From positions 62,001 through 126,000 of the forward strand of contig DASQNC010000044.1 of assembly GCA_035645145.1 (NCBI GenBank): a stretch of 64,000 bases of DNA, written 5' to 3'. Of this stretch, positions 13,317 to 25,739 are shown piece by piece. Source of the stretch: Azospirillaceae bacterium (lineage in GTDB: Bacteria; Pseudomonadota; Alphaproteobacteria; Azospirillales; Azospirillaceae). Position 1 is the stretch's first letter, and every line of letters starts with the position of its first letter. A program made the translations under genes and the position numbers. The notes under the pieces were generated by a model, which was given only the letters and a program-made list of their open reading frames with translations, did not search any database and was not told the DNA's origin.

Positions 13317-13396
13317 CCGTCAGGAAAGGCGGCCGTCAGGAAAGCGGGCCGTCAGGAAAGCGGGCCGTCAGGAAAGGCGGCCGTCAGGAAAGCGGG
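13317..13396. repeat. Five tandem 16-bp repeats at the 3' end of the HNH nuclease gene
   Basis: Five units run head to tail: CCGTCAGGAAAGCGGG three times and the variant CCGTCAGGAAAGGCGG twice, in the order variant, main, main, variant, main. Each unit contains TCA, a TGA stop on the minus strand. The nuclease stop (13384-13386) is the one in the last unit, so the array is a serial duplication of that gene's final codons and stop. Confidence 0.95.
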
Positions 13397-14223
13397 CGGC
13401 GCTCCGGGGCTTGGCCGGGCAGCGTCTGCCGGCACGCCTCCAGAATGTTGCCCACGGCAACCCGTTCGCTTTCGTCCATGGTCAACCCCCAGCGCGCCTT
13501 GATCAGCACCCAGTCCGCCACATAGGGGCAGCGGTGGGCGGGATTGGGGGGCAGCCACTCCTCCGGCCCTTTGGCCCCCTTCGAACGGTTCTGCTCCGCC
13601 GAGACGGCCCGCAGCGTGCGCCAGTCGGACAGGTCGTTGGCATAGGCGGTGCGGCGGTCGCGGTCCCACGCGTACCCGCCGCTCTGGTGCGCCTCCTCCA
13701 ACGGGACCATGTGGTCCACGTCGAGGTCCTCGGGGCTGGTGAAGACGTCGCCGGTGTACGGGTCGGGCCACCGGCCGGAGACGATGCGGCAGCGGTCCCG
13801 CGACCGCCGGGTCAGTTCGGCGGAGTCGCGGATCAACACCGCCTCGCGGACGTTCAGGCAGCCCTCCACGTCCTGCCAGTGGGGCCAGTCGCTGCGGTTG
13901 TAATCGGCATCCCGCTCGCGCGCGACCTTGATGCGGGCCAGCGCCGCATCCACGGCGGCGAAGTCGACCCGCTCGGCACCGGCGACGGGCGGGAGGGGCG
14001 GGCCGAACAGCTCGCTGTACACCCGCTGGATCAGCAGGCTCGCCTCGGTCGGGAGCCACCCGGCCCGATCCAGCGCGCTGCCGACCAGGACGAGGGCCAG
14101 GACGGCCAGCGTCGACAGGCGCGCGGCGCCGTTCAACCGGCCTCCGGTGCGGACCCGGCGGGATGGGCCGCCGTACCCCCGCCCCGGGGACCGGCCAGAA
14201 CGACGAGGACGTCTTGATGCCAT
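13384..14223 (-). CDS. HNH/DUF1524-like endonuclease with N-terminal membrane segment
   Basis: The 279-residue protein has a basic N-terminus and one hydrophobic segment (STLAVLALVLVGSAL, about 35-50), so it is exported or membrane anchored. The nuclease domain follows: LDVDHMVPLEEAHQSGG, RTAYANDLSDWRTLRAVS, QNRSKGAKGPEEWLPP and a final CPYVADWVLIKARWGL. This matches HNH proteins of the DUF1524/GmrSD C-terminal type, with DH as the catalytic pair. It could degrade DNA outside the cytoplasm; no cognate immunity or restriction partner is adjacent. Its stop lies in the last unit of a 16-bp repeat array. Confidence 0.85.
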   Translation of the reverse strand: MASRRPRRSGRSPGRGYGGPSRRVRTGGRLNGAARLSTLAVLALVLVGSALDRAGWLPTEASLLIQRVYSELFGPPLPPVAGAERVDFAAVDAALARIKVARERDADYNRSDWPHWQDVEGCLNVREAVLIRDSAELTRRSRDRCRIVSGRWPDPYTGDVFTSPEDLDVDHMVPLEEAHQSGGYAWDRDRRTAYANDLSDWRTLRAVSAEQNRSKGAKGPEEWLPPNPAHRCPYVADWVLIKARWGLTMDESERVAVGNILEACRQTLPGQAPERRPLS

Positions 14224-14282: not shown

Positions 14283-14921
14283 CTAGAAAATGGGAGGTTG
14301 CAGGCCTTCGGCGGCGATCACCGCCTGCACCGCCGGACGCGCGGCGATCCGCTCGGCATGCCTGGCGATCTGGGGACGCGACCGGGGCGGCCGCGGCAGG
14401 TTGCGCCCCCAGCGGGTGAGCATGAACAGTTGCAGGTCGGCGGGGGAGAACGTGTCGCCCAGCAGATAGGGGCCGTCACCCAATTCGGCCGCGACGCGGT
14501 CGAACACGCCCTCCATGCGCTCCGCCAGGGCCGCCTTCACCATCGGCCCGCCGTCCGGATCCTTGGTCACGCGCTCCGGCCGGACCATGTACACGAAGTC
14601 CACCTGGGGCGCGGTCGCCAGATAGAACATCCACTTGTACATATGCGCGCGCTTGGCCGACCCCGGCGGCGGTGCCAAACCCGACTCCGGATGCGCATCG
14701 CACAAATGCAGGACGATGGCGCCGCTTTCGTACAGAACGCCGCCGTCACCGTCCACCAGTGCCGGCACCCGGCCATGCGGGTTCAACTTCAGGTATTCGG
14801 GATCCCAGTGCTCGCCCTTCGCCAGGTCCACGCGGCGCAGCTCGAACGGCACGGCGAGTTCGCGCAGCACCATGTGCGGCAGCATGCTGGTTGCGCCGGG
14901 CATGTAGTAAAGCGTGTACAT
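14283..14921 (-). CDS. Glutathione S-transferase family protein
   Basis: The 212-residue protein has a thioredoxin-like N-terminal half ([38 protein letters not shown]) and an all-helical C-terminal half, the layout of cytosolic GSTs. ATSM sits where the active-site Ser/Cys is usually found. It may conjugate glutathione to electrophiles or reduce peroxides; the substrate is unknown. GGGAGG lies just upstream of the ATG at 14921, which rules out the longer in-frame open region. It is divergent from lysK. Confidence 0.9.
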
Positions 14922-15025
14922 GGGCCTCCCTCCCCTGGGGGTGCGTCTGGTTGAATGGCACACCCCATAACAAACGAGAGGTTGGGCGGCCACCCGTATC
15001 GGTGCCCGCGGCCACCGGCCTCCGG

Positions 15026-15054
15026 TTGACGCTGCCCCGGTCGGGCCGTAACGT
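15026..15054 (+). promoter_or_regulatory. Probable sigma-70 promoter of lysK
   Basis: TTGACG and TAACGT are separated by exactly 17 bp. The predicted start of transcription near 15061 leaves a short leader that includes the Shine-Dalgarno AAGGAGGA of lysK. Confidence 0.65.
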
Positions 15055-15082
15055 CCGCGGCCTTCGAAGGAGGATCCGAGAG

Positions 15083-16672
15083 ATGACGAGCGAGCGGGAA
15101 CTGGCGCTCCAGGCGAAGGCATGGCCGTTCGAGGAGGCGCGCAAGCTGGTGGCGCGCTTTGCCAAAGCGCCGCCCGCCAAGGGCTATGTCCTGTTCGAGA
15201 CCGGCTACGGCCCCTCGGGCCTGCCGCACATCGGCACCTTCGGCGAAGTGGCGCGCACCACCATGGTCCGCCAGGCGTTCCAGCGCATGTCGGACCTGCC
15301 GACCCGGCTGTTCGCCTTCTCCGACGACATGGACGGGTTGCGCAAGGTCCCGGACAACATCCCCAACCCGGACATGGTGCGCCAGCACCTGGGCAAGCCG
15401 CTGACCAAGGTGCCCGACCCGTTCGGCACCCATGAAAGCTTCGGCCACCACAACAATGCGCGCCTGCGCGCCTTCCTGGACCAGTTCGGTTTCGACTACG
15501 AGTTCCAGTCGGCGACCGACTGGTACACGTCCGGCCGCTTCGACCCCGTGCTGCGGCGGGTGCTGGAGCGCTACGACGAGGTGATGGCGGTGATGCTGCC
15601 GACCCTCGGGGCGGAGCGCCAGCAGACCTACAGCCCGTTCCTGCCGGTGTCGCCGAAGACGGGCCGGGTGCTGCAGGTGCCGATCCTGGAGCGCGACGTC
15701 GATGCCGGCACCATCGTCTTCGAGGACGAGGACGGCACCAAGGTCGAGGTGCCGGTCACGGGCGGCCACTGCAAGCTGCAATGGAAGCCGGACTGGGGCA
15801 TGCGCTGGGCGGCGCTGGGTGTGGACTACGAGATGTCGGGCAAGGACCTGATCCCGTCGGTCGATCTCGCGTCCAAGATCTGCCGGATCCTCGGCTGCCA
15901 GCCACCCGAAGGGTTCAACTACGAACTGTTCCTGGACGAGGACGGCCAGAAGATCTCCAAGTCCAAGGGCAACGGCCTGACCATGGAGGACTGGCTGCGC
16001 TACGGCCCGCCGGACAGTCTGGCGCTGTACATGTTCCAGAAGCCGCGGGCGGCCAAGCGGCTGTTCTTCGACGTGATCCCGCGCGCGGTGGACGAGTACC
16101 TGACCTTCGCGGAGAAGTTCCCGCAGGAGGCCGAGGACAAGCGCCTGGAAAACCCGGTCTGGCACATCCACAACGGCCGGCTGCCGAACAGCCTGGGCCA
16201 GCGGGACGGGCTGACCTACGGGATCCTTCTGAACCTGGCCGGGGTCGCGGCCGCCGAGACCAAGCAGGCCATGTGGGGCTTCATCACCCGGTACGCGCCG
16301 GGCCTGACGCCGGAAACGGCCCCCTATCTGGACCGGCTGGTGGGCTATGCCCTGAACTACTACCAGGACTTCGTGAAACCCGCGAAGACCTACCGGGCGC
16401 CCACCGACATGGAACGGGCGGCGCTGGAGGAGCTGTCGGCCGAGCTGTCGAAGATGCCGGACGCCGACGCCGAGACCCTGCAAACCCTGGTCTACGAGAT
16501 CGGCAAGCGCCACCCGTTCCCCGAACTGCGGGCGTGGTTCCAGTCGCTGTACGAGACGCTTCTGGGCCAGTCGACCGGGCCGCGCATGGGCTCGTTCATC
16601 GCCCTGTACGGGGTCGGGGAGACGCGGGCCCTGATCACACGGGCGCTGGCGGGTGAGTTGGCGGCGGCCTAG
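15083..16672 (+). CDS. lysK: Class I lysyl-tRNA synthetase
   Basis: The 529-residue enzyme is the archaeal-type class I LysRS used by most alphaproteobacteria instead of the class II enzyme. It charges tRNA-Lys with lysine in the cytoplasm. The class I signatures are visible: the HIGH-like HIGT near residues 49-52 ([13 protein letters not shown]) and the KMSKS-like KISKSKGN near 290-297. Length is normal. The ATG at 15083 has an ideal AAGGAGGA eight bases upstream and a good promoter before that. A long palindrome follows the stop. Confidence 0.97.
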
Positions 16673-17250: not shown

Positions 17251-18099
17251 CTACCGCAGGGGCGGCTCCTCCAGGAATTGCCGGACGGCGGCGATCTGGT
17301 CGGGCACGTTCAACGCCGGGGCGTGGCCGCAGCCGGGCACCTCGATCAACTCCGCCCGCGTGTTTTCCTGCAACATGCGCTCGGCGATGTCGGGCAGCAG
17401 CAGGTCGCTGTCCACCCCGCGCAGCACCAGCGTCTTGCAGTCGACCGCATGCCAAGCGTCCCAGAACCGGGTGTCCTCGGGGAAGTTGATGAGCTGGCGC
17501 ACGATGCGCGGGTCGTAGTGGGGCGTAAGACGGCCATCGGGCAGCCGCCGGGCCGAGGTGACGGTCAGCCGCTTCCACTGGGTGTCGGGCAGGTAGCCGT
17601 AGGGCCGGTAGACCGCCCGGAAGAAGGCCTCCAGCTCCGCCATGGTGTCGAGGACCGGCGGCGACGCGGCATAGGACAGGATCCGCTCGATGGCCGCCTG
17701 CGGCACCTCCGGCCCGATGTCGTTGACCACCAGGTGGGTGATCCGGCCCTTGAACCGGCCGCCGGCCAGCCGGATGCCAAGGGCGCCGCCCATGGACGTG
17801 CCGACCCACATCATGGCGTTGACGCCGAAGGTGGCGCACATCGCCTCGGCGATGTCGGCGTAGGTGTCGTAGCGGTACGCCTGCTCGTCGGCCGCCCACG
17901 ACGACAGGCCGCGGCCGATGGTGTCGGGCACCAGCAGGCGCCAGGTGCGCGACAGGTCACGGGCCAAGGGCTCGAAGTCCGCCCCGGTCCGGGCCAACCC
18001 GTGCCAGAGCACGACGGTCTCCAGATTGCCGGCCCCCCACTCGGCAACGTGGATCTCGTGCCCGCCGGCCTTGATGAAGTGGGTCAGCGGTTCGGTCAT
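17251..18099 (-). CDS. Alpha/beta hydrolase at the end of the liv-type operon
   Basis: The 282-residue alpha/beta-hydrolase has the nucleophile elbow GTSMGG (Ser), the oxyanion strand VVLWHGLARTG and a C-terminal GCGHAP His. The acid residue is probably in RGVDSDLL. It is cytoplasmic and hydrolyses an ester, amide or lactone that cannot be named from sequence. Its ATG overlaps the stop of the upstream permease gene by four bases, so it is made with the transporter and probably acts on the imported compound or a derivative. The sequence resembles the 3-oxoadipate enol-lactonase/epoxide-hydrolase-like group. Confidence 0.85.
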   Translation of the reverse strand: MTEPLTHFIKAGGHEIHVAEWGAGNLETVVLWHGLARTGADFEPLARDLSRTWRLLVPDTIGRGLSSWAADEQAYRYDTYADIAEAMCATFGVNAMMWVGTSMGGALGIRLAGGRFKGRITHLVVNDIGPEVPQAAIERILSYAASPPVLDTMAELEAFFRAVYRPYGYLPDTQWKRLTVTSARRLPDGRLTPHYDPRIVRQLINFPEDTRFWDAWHAVDCKTLVLRGVDSDLLLPDIAERMLQENTRAELIEVPGCGHAPALNVPDQIAAVRQFLEEPPLR

Positions 18100-19163
18100 G
18101 CGGCCCTCCCCTGGCGTAGACGCCCAACGATCCCCGTCGGAAAGAAGTAGACGGACAGGATGAACAGGATCCCGAGCCACAGCAGCCAGCGTTCGGGGTT
18201 GAACAGCTCCGGCACGACGGGCACGGCCTGCAGCGCGCCCTGCACACCGCCCATCAGCGGTTGCAGGTAGGATTGGGCCAGGATGAAGACGACCGCCCCC
18301 AGGACCGCGCCGTACATCGTTCCCATGCCGCCGATCACCACCATCAACAGGATGTTGATCATGATGGACGAGGCCAGGGTGTTGGCCGGGCCGACATAGG
18401 CGGTGGATATCGCCAGCAGCGCCCCGGCCAGGGCCGCGAACTTGGCGGCTGCGACGTTCGCGAGGGTGCGGTAGACCACGGTGCGGAAGCCGATCGCCTC
18501 GGCCCGGAAATCGTTCTCGCGGATGGCCTGGAGCACCCGGCCGAAGGGCGAATTCACGATCCGCAGCAGGACCAGGAAGCCCACCAGCGCCACCGCGAAC
18601 ACCAGGTAATAGGCCAGGGTGCGGCCGGTGATGCGGATGCCGAGGACCGGCTCGTTCCCGAACGGCCGGAAGGCGGGGCCCAGTTCGAACGGCAGGCGGA
18701 AACTCATCCCGTCCTCGCCGCCGGTGATGTGGAAAAGCTGGCTGACCAGGACCTCGAATGCGCTGGCCACCGCCAGCGTCACCATGGCGAAGAAGATCGC
18801 CCGCACCCGCAGGCTGAACAGCCCGACCACCAGCGCCAGGAGCCCGGCCGCCGCGATCCCCGCCACCGCCCCGATGCCGAGCCACACCCAGCTCCCCGGG
18901 TACGCTCTCAGCGCGATGGCAACGCCGTAGGCGCCGAGGCCGAAGAACATCGTGTGCGCGAACGACACGATGCCCGTGTAGCCCAACAGCAGGTCGTAGC
19001 TCGCCACCAGCAGGACGTAGCACAGGATCTGGGTTGCCACCTGATACGGCTTGGCACCCGGGAACAGGAAGGGGGCCGCGGCCAGGCACACGAAGGTTGC
19101 GACCAGCAGCAGCACCAGAAGGCGCGAGCGCGGCGTGTCGCCGGACAGGATCCAGGTCAGCAC
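18096..19163 (-). CDS. livM: Liv-type ABC transporter permease (LivM family)
   Basis: The 355-residue inner-membrane permease has the LivM pattern: about eight to ten hydrophobic segments, YDLLLGYTGIVSFAHTMFFG near the start, the coupling region LQAIRENDFRAEAIGF, and VVIGGMGTMYGAVLGA. It pairs with LivH to form the membrane channel of a branched-chain amino acid/amide-type importer. Translation starts at GTG (19163), ten bases after livH ends, and overlaps the hydrolase start. The substrate is inferred to be a small amide or related nitrogen compound rather than leucine. Confidence 0.9.
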   Translation of the reverse strand: MLTWILSGDTPRSRLLVLLLVATFVCLAAAPFLFPGAKPYQVATQILCYVLLVASYDLLLGYTGIVSFAHTMFFGLGAYGVAIALRAYPGSWVWLGIGAVAGIAAAGLLALVVGLFSLRVRAIFFAMVTLAVASAFEVLVSQLFHITGGEDGMSFRLPFELGPAFRPFGNEPVLGIRITGRTLAYYLVFAVALVGFLVLLRIVNSPFGRVLQAIRENDFRAEAIGFRTVVYRTLANVAAAKFAALAGALLAISTAYVGPANTLASSIMINILLMVVIGGMGTMYGAVLGAVVFILAQSYLQPLMGGVQGALQAVPVVPELFNPERWLLWLGILFILSVYFFPTGIVGRLRQGRAA

Positions 19164-19173
19164 GGCGGTTCCC

Positions 19174-20205
19174 TCACTTCACCTTGACCACGGGGAACAG
19201 CCCCTGGGGTCGCCACAGCAGGACCGCGACCATCAGCAGGATGCTCGAGACCAGCGCCACCCGGGGTGCCAGGTAGCCCGTGTAGTTCATCATCAACCCG
19301 ATCAGCAGCGCCCCGATGAAGCAGCCGCCGATCGAGCCCAGGCCGCCGATGATGACGACGATGAACACCAGGATCATCACGCCGCCGCCGATGTGCGGCG
19401 TGATCACCTCCTGGTACACCGCCCACATCACGCCGCCGAAGCCGGCCAACGCCGACCCGGCGACGAACACCGCGACGAAGAGGAGGCGGATGCGGTAGCC
19501 CAGCGCCTCCACCATCTCGCCGTTCTCGACCCCGGCCCGGATCAGCAGGCCGATGCGCGTCCGGGTGAGCACGAGCACCATGGCGGCGAAAATCACCAGC
19601 CCGATGCCCGCCGCGTAGACGCGGTAGCGCTCGACCGCGAAGTCGCCCAGCGGAATGACCCCTTTGAAGGTGCTGGGCATGGAGAGCGGAAGGGGCAGCG
19701 GGCCCCACACGGCATGGACGATCTGCTCGGCCACGATCAGCCCGCCCATGGTGATCAGGATCTGCTTCAGGTGCGCGCCGTAGACGGGCATGACGATCAC
19801 GCGCTCGAAGAACCAGCCCGCGATGGATGCGACCACCACGGCCGCCGACATGGCCAGCGCCATCGCCGCCCAGTTCAGCCACGCGCTCGGCGCGCCGGTC
19901 CAGCCGGCCAGGGCCAGGAGGACGCTGACGCCGACATAGGCGCCGATGGTGATGAACGCGCCATGGCCGAAGTTCAGGACGTCCATCAGGCCGAAGACCA
20001 ACGTCAGGCCCGAGGCCATGACGAAGATCATCATCCCCATGGCCAGCCCGGCGACCGTCAGGGTCAGCCAAGTGGCCGGATTGCCGATTGCCAGCAGTGC
20101 CGCGAGCACCAGCACGGGAACGATCAGGTAGGGGGCGTTGGCATCCAGCCAATCCCGGGGGCTGGTGCGTCGGGGACGCGGTGGGGCGATGGTTTCGGCC
20201 GTCAT
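19174..20205 (-). CDS. livH: Liv-type ABC transporter permease (LivH family)
   Basis: The 343-residue permease belongs to the LivH family: LVFGLMDVLNFGHGAFITIG, the coupling helix RAGVENGEMVEALGYRI, and VVIIGGLGSIGGCFIGA. A hydrophilic N-terminal extension (AETIAPPRPRRTSPRDW) is longer than in E. coli LivH. It forms half of the membrane channel with LivM. It lies 27 bp after livF, inside the operon driven by the sigma-54 promoter at 23086-23100. Confidence 0.9.
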   Translation of the reverse strand: MTAETIAPPRPRRTSPRDWLDANAPYLIVPVLVLAALLAIGNPATWLTLTVAGLAMGMMIFVMASGLTLVFGLMDVLNFGHGAFITIGAYVGVSVLLALAGWTGAPSAWLNWAAMALAMSAAVVVASIAGWFFERVIVMPVYGAHLKQILITMGGLIVAEQIVHAVWGPLPLPLSMPSTFKGVIPLGDFAVERYRVYAAGIGLVIFAAMVLVLTRTRIGLLIRAGVENGEMVEALGYRIRLLFVAVFVAGSALAGFGGVMWAVYQEVITPHIGGGVMILVFIVVIIGGLGSIGGCFIGALLIGLMMNYTGYLAPRVALVSSILLMVAVLLWRPQGLFPVVKVK

Positions 20206-20232: not shown

Positions 20233-20958
20233 CTATTGGTGCTGGTCGAGGCTGAGGCCCAGCAGGCGCTGCTGCAGTGCCCGGTCCTCCGCCAGTTCGG
20301 CCATGGGGCCGCTGTGCACCACCCGACCGTCGTCCATCACGGCGACGGTGTCGCCAAGCATTCGGGCCATCTGGAAATTCTGCTCCACCAGCAGGATCGT
20401 GGTGGACATGGCCTTGAGCTGCTGGAACGCCTCGGTCAGCGCGCCGACGATCGCGGGGGCCAACCCCTTGGACGGCTCGTCCACCAGCAGCAGTTCGCGC
20501 GGCTCGACCACGGCGCGGCTGATGGCCAGCATCTGCTTCTGTCCGCCCGACAGGTTGCCGGCCGGCAGATTCCAGAACTTCCGCATGGCCGGGAACAGGT
20601 CGAAGATCCAGTCGAGCCGCTTCTCGTCCATGGGGCCGTTGCGGGCGGCCAGGACCATGTTCTCCTTCACGGTCAGGCCGGTGAAGATGCCCATGTTCTC
20701 GGGCACATAGGCGATGCCGCGGGTGCTGATCTCGGGCGTGGACAGGGTGTGGATGGCGTCGCCCTTGAAACGGAGGTCGCCCCGGCTGGCCTTCCACAGC
20801 CCCATGATGGTGCGCATGGTGGTGGTCTTGCCGGCCCCGTTCCGACCCAGCAGCATGGTCACACCGCCGCGCGGCACGTCCAGGTCCACGCCTTGCAGGA
20901 TGTGGTAGCGCCCGATGTGGGTGTGGACGCCCGACAGTTGCAGCAGGGGCTCAGACAT
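20233..20958 (-). CDS. livF: Liv-type ABC transporter ATP-binding protein (LivF family)
   Basis: The 241-residue ATPase carries Walker A LGRNGAGKTT, signature LSGGQKQM, Walker B LLLVDEPSKGL, and the switch His shortly after (VEQNF region). Length and the opening SGVHTHIGRYHILQGVDL match LivF. It energises transport from the cytoplasmic face with LivG. Its start overlaps the livG end by eight bases, so the two ATPases are translationally coupled. Confidence 0.92.
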   Translation of the reverse strand: MSEPLLQLSGVHTHIGRYHILQGVDLDVPRGGVTMLLGRNGAGKTTTMRTIMGLWKASRGDLRFKGDAIHTLSTPEISTRGIAYVPENMGIFTGLTVKENMVLAARNGPMDEKRLDWIFDLFPAMRKFWNLPAGNLSGGQKQMLAISRAVVEPRELLLVDEPSKGLAPAIVGALTEAFQQLKAMSTTILLVEQNFQMARMLGDTVAVMDDGRVVHSGPMAELAEDRALQQRLLGLSLDQHQ

Positions 20959-21727
20959 TGGCGCTCGCCCCCATGCCCAGATAGGCCTCCTGCACGATGG
21001 GCGACTGCATGACCGTGGCGGGATCGCCGTCGGCCACCAGATAGCCGTTGTGCAGCACGACGATGCGGTCGGCCAGCGAGCGCACCACGTCCATCTTGTG
21101 CTCCACCAGCAGCACGGTCCGGGTGCGGTCCTGCTTGATGGCGGTGATCAGGTCCAGGATCACCGGCACCTCGTCCACGCTCATGCCGGCCGTCGGCTCG
21201 TCGAACATGAGCACGTCCTTCTCCAGCGCGAGCATGATGGCGACCTCCAGCCGCCGCTGCCCGCCGTGGGACAGGGACGAGGCCGGCTCGTGCGCACGCG
21301 CCAGCAGGCCGACGCGGTCCAGGTAGCGTTCCGCCTCCTCCACGATCGACCGCCGGGTCGCGGCGAGGCCGAACAGGTCGAGCCCGATGCGCGAGCGGCC
21401 CTGGACGGCCAGGCGCACATTCTCGATCACGGTGAGGTTCGGGAACAGGTTGGTGAGTTGGAACGCCCGGCCGATCCCGCGGGCCGTGCGCGCCGCCGGG
21501 CCGAGGGCGGTCACGTCCTGGCCGAACAGGAGGACGGTCCCCGAGGTGGCCTTCAACTGGCCCGAGATCAGGTTGAAATAGGTGGTCTTGCCAGCGCCGT
21601 TCGGCCCCACGATGGCGGTCAGCGTGCCGCGGTGGAATCCGCACGACACGCTGTTGACCGCCACATGCCCGCCGAACCGGATGGTCAGATCCCGCGTCTC
21701 GAGGACGGGTGCGTCGCTTCCGGTCAT
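20951..21727 (-). CDS. livG: Liv-type ABC transporter ATP-binding protein (LivG family)
   Basis: The 258-residue ATPase has Walker A GPNGAGKTTYFN, Walker B LMFDEPTAGM and an ABC signature that reads LSHGGQRRLE instead of LSGGQ. The histidine variant is common in LivG-like urea and amide transporters. The ATG at 21727 (MTGSDAPVLETRDLTIRFGG) is preferred because upstream in-frame residues are low complexity. It lies 96 bp after the binding-protein gene. Confidence 0.92.
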   Translation of the reverse strand: MTGSDAPVLETRDLTIRFGGHVAVNSVSCGFHRGTLTAIVGPNGAGKTTYFNLISGQLKATSGTVLLFGQDVTALGPAARTARGIGRAFQLTNLFPNLTVIENVRLAVQGRSRIGLDLFGLAATRRSIVEEAERYLDRVGLLARAHEPASSLSHGGQRRLEVAIMLALEKDVLMFDEPTAGMSVDEVPVILDLITAIKQDRTRTVLLVEHKMDVVRSLADRIVVLHNGYLVADGDPATVMQSPIVQEAYLGMGASANV

Positions 21728-21823
21728 GGCCTCGTCCGGTTGGTCCGGGTCCGTCGTATGCGTTGCGGGTTGCGTGCGGCGCGGCCGTTCCGGGCGATGC
21801 ACGGGACGGCCGCGCGGTCCGCC

Positions 21824-23032
21824 TTACCGCGGCTTGCCCTGGTTGCGGATCGGGATCTGCATGTCCTCGATCTTCAGCTCCCGGATCAGTTCCGGAATGC
21901 CCCACTCCACGGCCGGATCGACCTTGATGCGGAAGTGGTACATGGACTGCAGCGCCTGGTGGTCCTCGGCGCGGAAGACCATCCGCCCCTTCGGCGTCTG
22001 GAACTCCATGCCGCGCATGGCCGCGATCAGCTTTTCGGTGTCGGTGCTTTGCGCCTTTTCAAGGCCGGTCACGATGGCCATGGCCGCCGAAAAGCCACCC
22101 GCGGTGAAGAAGTCGGGCGGGCTGTTGAAACGCTCGCGGTGGGTCTTCACCAGCCAGTCGTTCACCGGGTTCTTGGGGATTTCATAATAGTAGTAGGCGG
22201 CCCCTTCCAATCCGGGGCTCTCCTTGTAGGCGACCATCGCGGGCAGGATGTTGCCACCCGACGCCAGCTTGATGCCGTGGCGGCCGGGATCAAGCGCCTG
22301 CAGGCGGCCCATGGGCGATTGGCCAGCCCAGTTCACGAACAGGTACTTCTCGCCCTGCACGTTCTTCATGGCGTCCACGATGCGCTGGAACGACGCCGTG
22401 AAGTCGGTGGTGTTCTGCGGCGCGTATTCCTCGTGGATGATCTTGGCACCGGTGTTGGCGAGCGCCTCCTTGAAGGCGGCGACGCCGTCGCGGCCGAAGG
22501 CATAGTCCTGGGCCAGCGTGGCGATGAACACGCCCGGACGGCCGACCGCGACCGCGTTCGAAACCGCGTCCTGCGAACTGTTGCGGGCGGTACGGAAGAT
22601 GTAACGGTTCCAGCGGTCGCCGGTGATGCTGTCGGCCACGGCGGGCTCGACGATCAGGATCTTCTGGAACTCCTCGGCGACCGGCAGCATGGCCAACGCC
22701 GTGCCCGACGAGGTCGGGCCGATGGCGATGTCGGCGTCCTCGTCACCGAACGCCTGGGCAAGCAGGGACTTACCGAGCTCCGGCCGGCCCTGGGTGTCCT
22801 TTTCGATCACCTGGATCGGGCGCCCAAGCACCTTCATGGTGCCCTTGGTCGCGTACTCGAACCCCAGCATCAGGCCCTGCTGGGTCTGCTTGGCGTACGC
22901 CTCCAGCGGACCCGTGCGGTCGTACACGTGGGCGATCTTGATGGGTTGCTGCGCGACGGCGGGCCCGGCGGCAAGCCAGGCCGCGGTCGCCGCGAGGGTA
23001 AGCAGCGTGCGGCGCTTCATGGTCGCTTTCAT
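21824..23032 (-). CDS. ABC transporter substrate-binding protein, Liv/amide type
   Basis: The 402-residue periplasmic binding protein has a signal peptide (MKRRTLLTLAATAAWLAAGP, cleavage after AVA). The mature protein follows the type I periplasmic-binding fold of LivJ/AmiC/UrtA relatives: IKIAHVYDRTGPLEAYAKQT, IGPTSSGTALA, FIATLAQDYAFGRDG. It captures the substrate for the LivGFHM importer. The ATG at 23032 is used; an ATG at 23020 (MKRRT) is nearly as good because neither has ideal Shine-Dalgarno spacing. It is the first gene after a consensus sigma-54 promoter. Ligand class (amide, urea-like or amino acid) is inferred from the acetamidase nearby. Confidence 0.9.
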   Translation of the reverse strand: MKATMKRRTLLTLAATAAWLAAGPAVAQQPIKIAHVYDRTGPLEAYAKQTQQGLMLGFEYATKGTMKVLGRPIQVIEKDTQGRPELGKSLLAQAFGDEDADIAIGPTSSGTALAMLPVAEEFQKILIVEPAVADSITGDRWNRYIFRTARNSSQDAVSNAVAVGRPGVFIATLAQDYAFGRDGVAAFKEALANTGAKIIHEEYAPQNTTDFTASFQRIVDAMKNVQGEKYLFVNWAGQSPMGRLQALDPGRHGIKLASGGNILPAMVAYKESPGLEGAAYYYYEIPKNPVNDWLVKTHRERFNSPPDFFTAGGFSAAMAIVTGLEKAQSTDTEKLIAAMRGMEFQTPKGRMVFRAEDHQALQSMYHFRIKVDPAVEWGIPELIRELKIEDMQIPIRNQGKPR

Positions 23033-23085: not shown

Positions 23086-23100
23086 GCAAAACCCGTGCCA
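23086..23100 (-). promoter_or_regulatory. Sigma-54 (RpoN) promoter of the liv-type operon
   Basis: Read on the minus strand, the site is TGGCACG-GGTT-TTGC, matching the sigma-54 consensus TGGCACG-N4-TTGC at every fixed position. Transcription should begin near 23074, about 42 bases before the first start codon. Three palindromes lie 80-190 bp further upstream and the gene of a sigma-54 activator is adjacent. Confidence 0.88.
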
Positions 23101-23152
23101 CATCCGGGCGCAGGCATTCCAACGCCTTGCGGATCCGGCAGCAGCACCCGAC

Positions 23153-23170
23153 TGTCCGCCCAGCCGGACA
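23153..23170. promoter_or_regulatory. Candidate activator site 1 (TGTCCG-N6-CGGACA)
   Basis: TGTCCGCCCAGCCGGACA has the same six-base arms and spacing as the two sites upstream but a different core. Its centre is about 87 bp upstream of the predicted sigma-54 start. Confidence 0.7.
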
Positions 23171-23222
23171 CGGACCCGCCGCGAGGAAAAATTTTCCTTC
23201 CACTTCAGAGGCTTGGGAAGCG

Positions 23223-23240
23223 TGTCCGGGTTCCCGGACA
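23223..23240. promoter_or_regulatory. Candidate activator site 2 (18-bp palindrome)
   Basis: TGTCCGGGTTCCCGGACA has eight-base inverted arms around TT and is identical to site 3. Its centre is about 157 bp upstream of the predicted sigma-54 start, a normal enhancer distance. Confidence 0.8.
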
Positions 23241-23251
23241 GAATGCCGCCA

Positions 23252-23269
23252 TGTCCGGGTTCCCGGACA
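23252..23269. promoter_or_regulatory. Candidate activator site 3 (18-bp palindrome)
   Basis: This is an exact second copy of TGTCCGGGTTCCCGGACA, 29 bp centre to centre from site 2 and only 10 bp from the stop of the activator gene. Confidence 0.8.
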
Positions 23270-23279
23270 TGGGACAGCC

Positions 23280-24725
<1,446 letters not shown>

Positions 24726-24803
24726 GCCTACCCCCTGTCCCCGCAAGGCTAAGGGAGCGGGCAGGCCGCCCGCAAGCGGCGAGGGGTGCGTACCGACGAA
24801 CGG

Positions 24804-25739
24804 TCAGCCGTGCAGGGCGGCCTTGGGCAGCATCGCGTGCACGCCCTTGTTCTGGTTGACCACCTGCGTGATCCGGAGATCACAGGCCAGACTGCACAGC
24901 ATGTAGGCTTGCGCCGCCGACAGGTTGGACCGGCCGCGGATCAGCGCGATCATGTCGCGCAGGGCGGCCACCATGGCGTTGTCCAGGTCCGGGTCGAAGG
25001 CCATGGTGATGAAGTGGGTGCGCGTCTCCGCCCGCGGCCAGTCCAGGGGCTGGCCCTTGCGGACATGGAATTCGAAGGTGCCGACCAGGCCGGTTTCGAT
25101 GGCCGTCAGGTTCACCTCGCCGTCCCCCTGCACCGCATGGCCGTCCCCGGCGGAGAACAGCGCGCCGGGGACGTGGACCGGCAGGTAAAGCGTGGCCCCC
25201 GGCCCCAGTTCCTTGTTGTCCAGGTTGCCGCCGTGCCGACGGGGGGCGATGGACGTGATTTCACGCCAGGCCGGCGGTGGCGCCACCCCCATGACGCCGA
25301 AAAAAGGCCGCAGCGGCAGGTCGACACCCCAGGGCATGCGCGATGTCATGTTTGCGCGGTCGATGGGGAGATGGACCTGGTGCCATTCGTCGAAGTCGTC
25401 CGGCAGCGCCCCGCCCAGCGGCCGCGATGCGTTGTACCCCCAGTCCCAGGCCAATTGGACGTCCAGGATGCGGACCTCCAGCGTATCGCCCGGCTCCGCC
25501 CCCTCGATCGCGACCGGGCCGGTCAGGATGTGGCCGGGACCGGGCGGCAGCTCGGCATGAATCCGGCGCAATGCCTCCGGCACCTCGAACGGTGGGCCCG
25601 GCATGTTCGCCGGTGTCCCCGAAACGCTGTCGAGTGTGACCTGGTCGCCCGGACGGACGGTCAGGACGGGCTTGTGGCGGGCATCGAAGGTGCCCCAATG
25701 GACCGTTGCCGGTCCGGCCTCGAGCCGATGTGCCACCAT
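24804..25739 (-). CDS. Acetamidase/formamidase family protein
   Basis: The 311-residue protein matches the acetamidase/formamidase family: VLTVRPGDQVTLDSVSG, HILTGPVAIEGAEPGDTLEV, GNLDNKELGPGATLYLPVHV and the metal/active-site region FSAGDGHAVQGDGEVN. Members hydrolyse short amides such as formamide or acetamide to ammonia and the acid. It lies 78 bp before the sigma-54 activator and 16 bp after the DedA gene, all on the same strand. With a Liv-type importer downstream this suggests use of amides as nitrogen source; no TGTCCG palindrome is seen at its own 5' end. Confidence 0.9.
   Translation of the reverse strand: MVAHRLEAGPATVHWGTFDARHKPVLTVRPGDQVTLDSVSGTPANMPGPPFEVPEALRRIHAELPPGPGHILTGPVAIEGAEPGDTLEVRILDVQLAWDWGYNASRPLGGALPDDFDEWHQVHLPIDRANMTSRMPWGVDLPLRPFFGVMGVAPPPAWREITSIAPRRHGGNLDNKELGPGATLYLPVHVPGALFSAGDGHAVQGDGEVNLTAIETGLVGTFEFHVRKGQPLDWPRAETRTHFITMAFDPDLDNAMVAALRDMIALIRGRSNLSAAQAYMLCSLACDLRITQVVNQNKGVHAMLPKAALHG

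Follow-up and report, generated by a model that had tools for sequence, protein, structure and literature searches.

A probable sigma-54 control module with three palindromic enhancer sites upstream of a Liv-type transporter operon in an Azospirillaceae bacterium

Layout of the predicted control module

Within the window, the stretch of 64,000 nucleotides of Azospirillaceae DNA analysed here, an activator gene, a three-site enhancer, a sigma-54 promoter and a transporter-hydrolase operon very probably make up a self-contained sigma-54 control module. Because distant bacteria show this arrangement again, with the same site, we regard it as a real regulator-and-switch pair. The module is ordinary in kind; its interest lies in the geometry of the three sites, in a site absent from the literature searched, and in a half-site that switches together with the recognition helix of the regulator. 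To our knowledge, few PAS-type sigma-54 activators have a known DNA site.

On the minus strand, the order is an acetamidase/formamidase-family gene, the activator gene, the three sites, the promoter and the genes for a Liv-type periplasmic binding protein (SBP), LivG, LivF, LivH, LivM and an alpha/beta-hydrolase. The activator (23280–24746, minus strand) is an enhancer-binding protein of the PAS/AAA+/Fis-HTH type, placed by its domains and by a phylogenetic tree in an HbcR-like clade. Its domain matches (PF00158, 219 bits; HTH_8, 45 bits; a PAS sensor) and the GAYTGA motif at residue 241 bear out the first-pass annotation, which had read the upstream neighbour of the operon as a PAS/AAA+/Fis activator with GAYTGA. 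The recognition helix reads ISRAQFYEKL, and the start codon is uncertain (TTG is the one shown). The operon, also on the minus strand, comprises the SBP (21824–23020), a close relative of PDB 3n0x/3nnd, the LivG-type ATPase (20951–21802), the LivF-type ATPase (20233–20958), the LivH-type permease (19174–20205), the LivM-type permease (18096–19163) and the alpha/beta-hydrolase (17251–18099), which is the last conserved operon gene. The transporter subunits score under the cut-offs that NCBIfam sets for leucine and urea transporters, so the substrate is not fixed as either. Elsewhere in the window lie a class I lysyl-tRNA synthetase-type ORF (14672–16672, plus strand) and a match to the GmrSD_C domain (13384–14223, minus strand; 29.5 bits, gathering cut-off 23).

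Reading the sequence directly, we found an exact sigma-54 (−24/−12) promoter, TGGCACGGGTTTTGC (TGGCACG-N4-TTGC), at 23086–23100 on the minus strand, as had been proposed; in relatives, too, the promoter lies between sites and operon. The motif by itself is not decisive, since about 1.8 chance matches per window are expected at up to one mismatch. The genome holds one rpoN above the model cut-off, and the operon is predicted to be RpoN-dependent. Either ATG 23032 or ATG 23020 could start the SBP gene. The distance of 53 bp from promoter to first codon given earlier holds for ATG 23032, but ATG 23020 is the more likely start, judging by the signal peptide and by relatives.

Exact copies of TGTCCG-N6-CGGACA lie at 23153–23170 (site 1, proximal, TGTCCGCCCAGCCGGACA), 23223–23240 (site 2) and 23252–23269 (site 3, distal, TGTCCGGGTTCCCGGACA), the last directly 3' of the activator stop codon. 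Counted from the +1 position placed by the −24 GG, these putative enhancer sites are centred at −87.5, −157.5 and −186.5, with 70 bp between sites 1 and 2 and 29 bp between sites 2 and 3. These centres agree with the 87, 157 and 186 bp of the first-pass annotation, and sites 2 and 3 are indeed the same 18-mer. Column counts over 50 sites gave the consensus TGTCCGGAATTCCGGACA, a full 18-bp palindrome that differs from the NtrC site, as had also been asserted. The consensus 18-mer was not found in the literature searched, which did not settle whether an HbcR site is published; the site is apparently new to description. The spacer between sites 2 and 1 (23171–23222) is AT-richer than its surroundings, as it is in L159, L160 and L005 (four of four operons compared). 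No IHF-type consensus was found between sites 2 and 1 in these four operons, and the AT-richer spacer may harbour a DNA bend.

In the whole genome of 3,889,522 bases, the exact pattern occurs three times, always in this intergenic region, and a reversed control pattern does not occur. The sole other relaxed match in the genome (C45:15029) lies beside a phage-repressor-like gene and has no sigma-54 promoter, so a wider regulon was not found there. Could the palindromes be accidents of high-GC DNA? Matches with two mismatches do occur in the window at chance level. Against this, three exact copies fall within 117 bp, with none in the rest of the 3.9 Mb, and the sites are conserved in further families, which already refutes the idea; its probability is vanishingly small. 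A chance origin was rejected on the genome copy number and on a search of 385 alphaproteobacterial genomes drawn across the class, in which a tandem TGTCC-N8-GGACA pair (gap of at most 32 bp) was found in this genome only (1/385) and was absent from the other 384.

The palindromes might also be GC-rich hairpins that serve as terminators of the activator gene or belong to a family of repetitive extragenic elements. Site 3 begins about 10 nt past the stop codon, and a short hairpin is possible from each 18-mer. We nevertheless consider this very improbable: no T-run follows the sites, a search of the minus strand gave no terminator-like site, and the genome has only three copies. Moreover, a site falls within the activator coding sequence or overlaps its end in six other loci (L004, L005, L159, L160, L018 and L021), and both the conserved spacing and the correlation of helix and site argue against hairpins of either sort. 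Terminators and repetitive elements were rejected on the terminator search and the genome copy number.

Under the preferred reading, a sigma-54 control module, activator dimers would bind the three TGTCCGG-N4-CCGGACA-type sites through the Fis-type HTH. The sites are arranged between the 3' end of the activator gene and the operon as a close pair (29 bp) and a promoter-proximal site. The PAS domain would sense a metabolite, upon which the activator would form an ATPase ring on the site array. This ring would open the RpoN-RNA polymerase waiting at TGGCACGGGTTTTGC and so switch on the SBP-LivG-LivF-LivH-LivM-hydrolase operon, whose own hydrolase possibly releases the inducer. Direct binding of the activator to the sites is what we infer from sequence comparison.

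Recurrence and spacing of the sites in other genomes

Activator orthologues were gathered by protein sequence. Those of Rhodocyclaceae and Sulfuritalea are 62% identical to the window protein, those of Marinobacter and Halomonadaceae 51–54%, and in all four groups a like palindrome lies at or just past the activator stop codon. Where the contig continues, a sigma-54 promoter comes next in nearly all of these loci, and in most of them a transporter or catabolic operon follows. Matches to TGTCY-N8-RGACA are about 37-fold denser beside the activator gene than in the rest of these loci, and it is this gene which 16 of the 21 sites in these loci adjoin, a count drawn from related sequences and hence from events that are not independent.

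The reverse comparison is independent of this and carries more weight. Starting from the transporter, we found an SBP orthologue in 17 other alphaproteobacterial genomes among 241 searched. In five of the 17, representing three families, an activator 53–63% identical to that of the window is encoded directly upstream, and all five carry palindromes and a sigma-54 promoter (three of them, from one genus, with one-mismatch sites). A further 11 scorable genomes have no activator within 1.5 kb, and none of the 11 has the sites or a sigma-54 promoter. The co-occurrence of activator with sites and promoter gave a Fisher p of 2e-4 by genome and 0.003 by family. This phylogenetic footprinting supports the activator-site pair put forward as a candidate in the first-pass annotation.

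Three further alphaproteobacterial families have the whole arrangement, as does a Sulfuritalea MAG to the extent that its short contig shows. Gene order is kept through the hydrolase in L158, L159 and L160 and through LivM on the Sulfuritalea contig. Upstream of these orthologous operons, where lack of the 18-mer had been named as one possible refutation of the proposal, the same palindrome was found: each copy has three sites of the consensus TGTCCGGAATTCCGGACA ahead of a sigma-54 promoter. The recognition helix LLGISRAQFYEKL is common to the window, L158, L159 and L160.

Spacing is constant within each group of relatives. From the distal pair to the third site, the distances are 28–29 and 67–72 bp in the window, L159 (centres −226.5, −198.5 and −130.5), L160 (−186.5, −158.5 and −86.5) and L005 (−206.5, −178.5 and −111.5, the third site being imperfect). 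They are 28 and 24 bp in L158, L142 and L143. In Marinobacter and Halomonas, TGTCC sites at about −162, −142 and −99 are spaced by 20 and 43/44 bp. Of the shuffled regions, 1.7% contained at least two such site windows.

Such sites are missing beside most of the Azospirillum activators in the clade, which have a Y-E helix and are about 55% identical. Six Azospirillum genomes with Y-E activators were searched and gave scattered single matches only, with no site clusters; the pairing of activator and site can therefore not be claimed for this group.

Five loci that have the transporter without a sigma-54 activator (L148, L149, L151, L154 and L155) carry another palindrome, ACATGA..TCATGT-like, upstream of the SBP gene and, by eye, an apparent divergent TetR-type gene before it. 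This suggests a switch in the control of the transporter, either from repression to sigma-54 activation or in the opposite direction.

Recognition helix and half-site

Proteins with a Y-E (or Y-T) recognition helix, such as SRAQFYEKL and SRSVLYEKL, adjoin TGTCC-type sites, whereas those with a Y-K helix, such as GRATLYKKM and SRAAFYKKL, adjoin sites of the TGTCTC-N6-GAGACA type. The TGTCTC-type sites come in threes in Pseudomonas (spacing 20 and 116) and in Paraburkholderia (21 and 79). Two Y-K-related loci depart from this pattern: L006 has neither site type near the activator, and in L127 a Y-K-type site lies 5.4 kb from it, upstream of a permease resembling that beside the Pseudomonas and Cupriavidus activators. 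In the Azospirillum locus L125, the sole adjoining site, TGTCTG-N6-CAGACA, scores equally for both types. As the Y-K proteins form one clade, the change of helix and half-site counts as one evolutionary switch, and a Fisher test on the association of helix with half-site exaggerates its weight.

Paralogues from the Azospirillum family with Y-A in the recognition helix (L126, L128 and L129) form a separate observation. Their loci encode a binding protein, a BKACE-type cleavage enzyme and a 3-hydroxyacyl-CoA dehydrogenase-like frame upstream of the activator, and the TGT(C/T)C..TGAC-like sequences close to the start of the activator are possibly a third half-site variant.

These data bear on whether the palindromes serve another regulator, for instance a GntR, TetR or MarR repressor encoded elsewhere, with the activator using other sites. 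Dyad symmetry does not by itself identify the binder, and the different palindrome and divergent frame of other genomes hint, by eye, at TetR-type control of the same transporter. The sites of the window type, however, track the presence of the adjoining activator gene, and their half-site shifts with its recognition helix. They also come as three with fixed spacing at classical enhancer distances (−87 to −227), and exact copies are found nowhere else in the genome. We therefore judge control by another regulator improbable and retain the adjoining activator as the likely binder.

A broader proposal can be made, tentatively and at somewhat less than even confidence: PAS-type sigma-54 activators of one clade would govern the uptake and catabolism of short hydroxy or keto acids through a three-dimer enhancer with lineage-specific spacing, and a single Tyr-Glu to Tyr-Lys switch would have changed TGTCC half-sites into TGTCTC. 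In the window, the module may drive an importer and a hydrolase for hydroxy-acid oligomers or esters. If the proposal is true, the Tyr-Glu/Tyr-Lys switch gives enhancer-binding proteins a specificity code that can be read, and a natural half-site switch that goes with one helix residue makes such a code directly testable for this class of regulator. The module further means that regulator, site, promoter and operon are assignable together by sequence in alpha-, beta- and gammaproteobacteria, and it offers a handle on the substrate of a crystallised but uncharacterised binding-protein family.

Candidate inducer and comparison with known systems

In a maximum-likelihood tree, the window activator groups with Rhodocyclaceae proteins, and a neighbouring group of 26 rows holds proteins from Marinobacter, Azospirillum and Burkholderiales/Pseudomonas. 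A clade of 29 rows (96/94) includes both the window activator and a Pseudomonas homologue (L123, 47–49% identical), in separate subclades. Downstream of the gene for this homologue come a sigma-54 promoter, a permease, 3-hydroxybutyrate dehydrogenase and acetoacetate-CoA ligase, and this neighbourhood makes the homologue a candidate for HbcR. In Pseudomonas, HbcR (PA2005 of PAO1) is the sigma-54 activator that controls the catabolism of (R)-3-hydroxybutyrate; it was reportedly the subject of a 2015 study by Lundgren et al. HbcR is described as an RpoN-dependent activator responding to R-3-hydroxybutyrate (PMC10482368).

Several other clade members adjoin 3-hydroxybutyrate dehydrogenase, acetoacetate-CoA ligase or 3-hydroxybutyryl-CoA dehydrogenase, so the clade seems to be dedicated to short hydroxy and keto acids; TRAP transporters were seen by eye beside some members. 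Clade membership weakly suggests that the inducer in the window is 3-hydroxybutyrate-like or another short hydroxy or keto acid. Since the window group does not fall within the Pseudomonas HbcR-like group of the tree, 3-hydroxybutyrate itself is no more than a lead. The window operon has none of these enzymes, the 3-hydroxybutyrate dehydrogenase gene of the genome is unlinked, with neither site nor sigma-54 promoter in its 3.8-kb locus, and a search of the genome gave no acetoacetate-CoA ligase that passed the family cut-off.

There is an even chance that the module is right and that its inducer or substrate is something other than a 3-hydroxybutyrate-like compound, such as an imported amide, aromatic compound or amino acid. 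The acetamidase/formamidase-family gene (24804–25739, minus strand) directly precedes the activator gene on the same strand, an amidase-like frame lies, by eye, beside the SBP gene in L162, and the names of the closest solved relatives of the SBP (3n0x/3nnd) give no ligand. Neither amidase-type gene, however, was seen beside other activator-bearing operons (the acetamidase/formamidase-family gene is not next to the activator in L158–L160), and the enzymes that adjoin several clade members speak for hydroxy acids.

The predicted module shares with NtrC and other enhancer-binding proteins the placing of sites about 90–230 bp upstream of a −24/−12 promoter, the Fis-type HTH and the AAA+ domain with a GA(F/Y)TGA loop. 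It differs from NtrC in that the activator has a PAS sensor instead of a receiver domain (it scores 271.5 bits against the ntrC model, far short of the cut-off of 558.6), and in its palindrome TGTCCGGAATTCCGGACA, present at three sites with a fixed, lineage-specific spacing. Liv/HAAT-type ABC importers have the same complete set of SBP, LivG, LivF, LivH and LivM, whereas here an alpha/beta-hydrolase accompanies the set, joined in some lineages by a sigma-54 activator. There is also a likeness to HbcR: both proteins have a single PAS, AAA+ and Fis-HTH layout, and the L123 locus also has three palindromic sites. The L123 half-site is TGTCTC and goes with a Y-K helix, whereas the window pairs TGTCC with Y-E; the target genes differ as well, and the window protein stands outside the Pseudomonas/Burkholderiales subclade.
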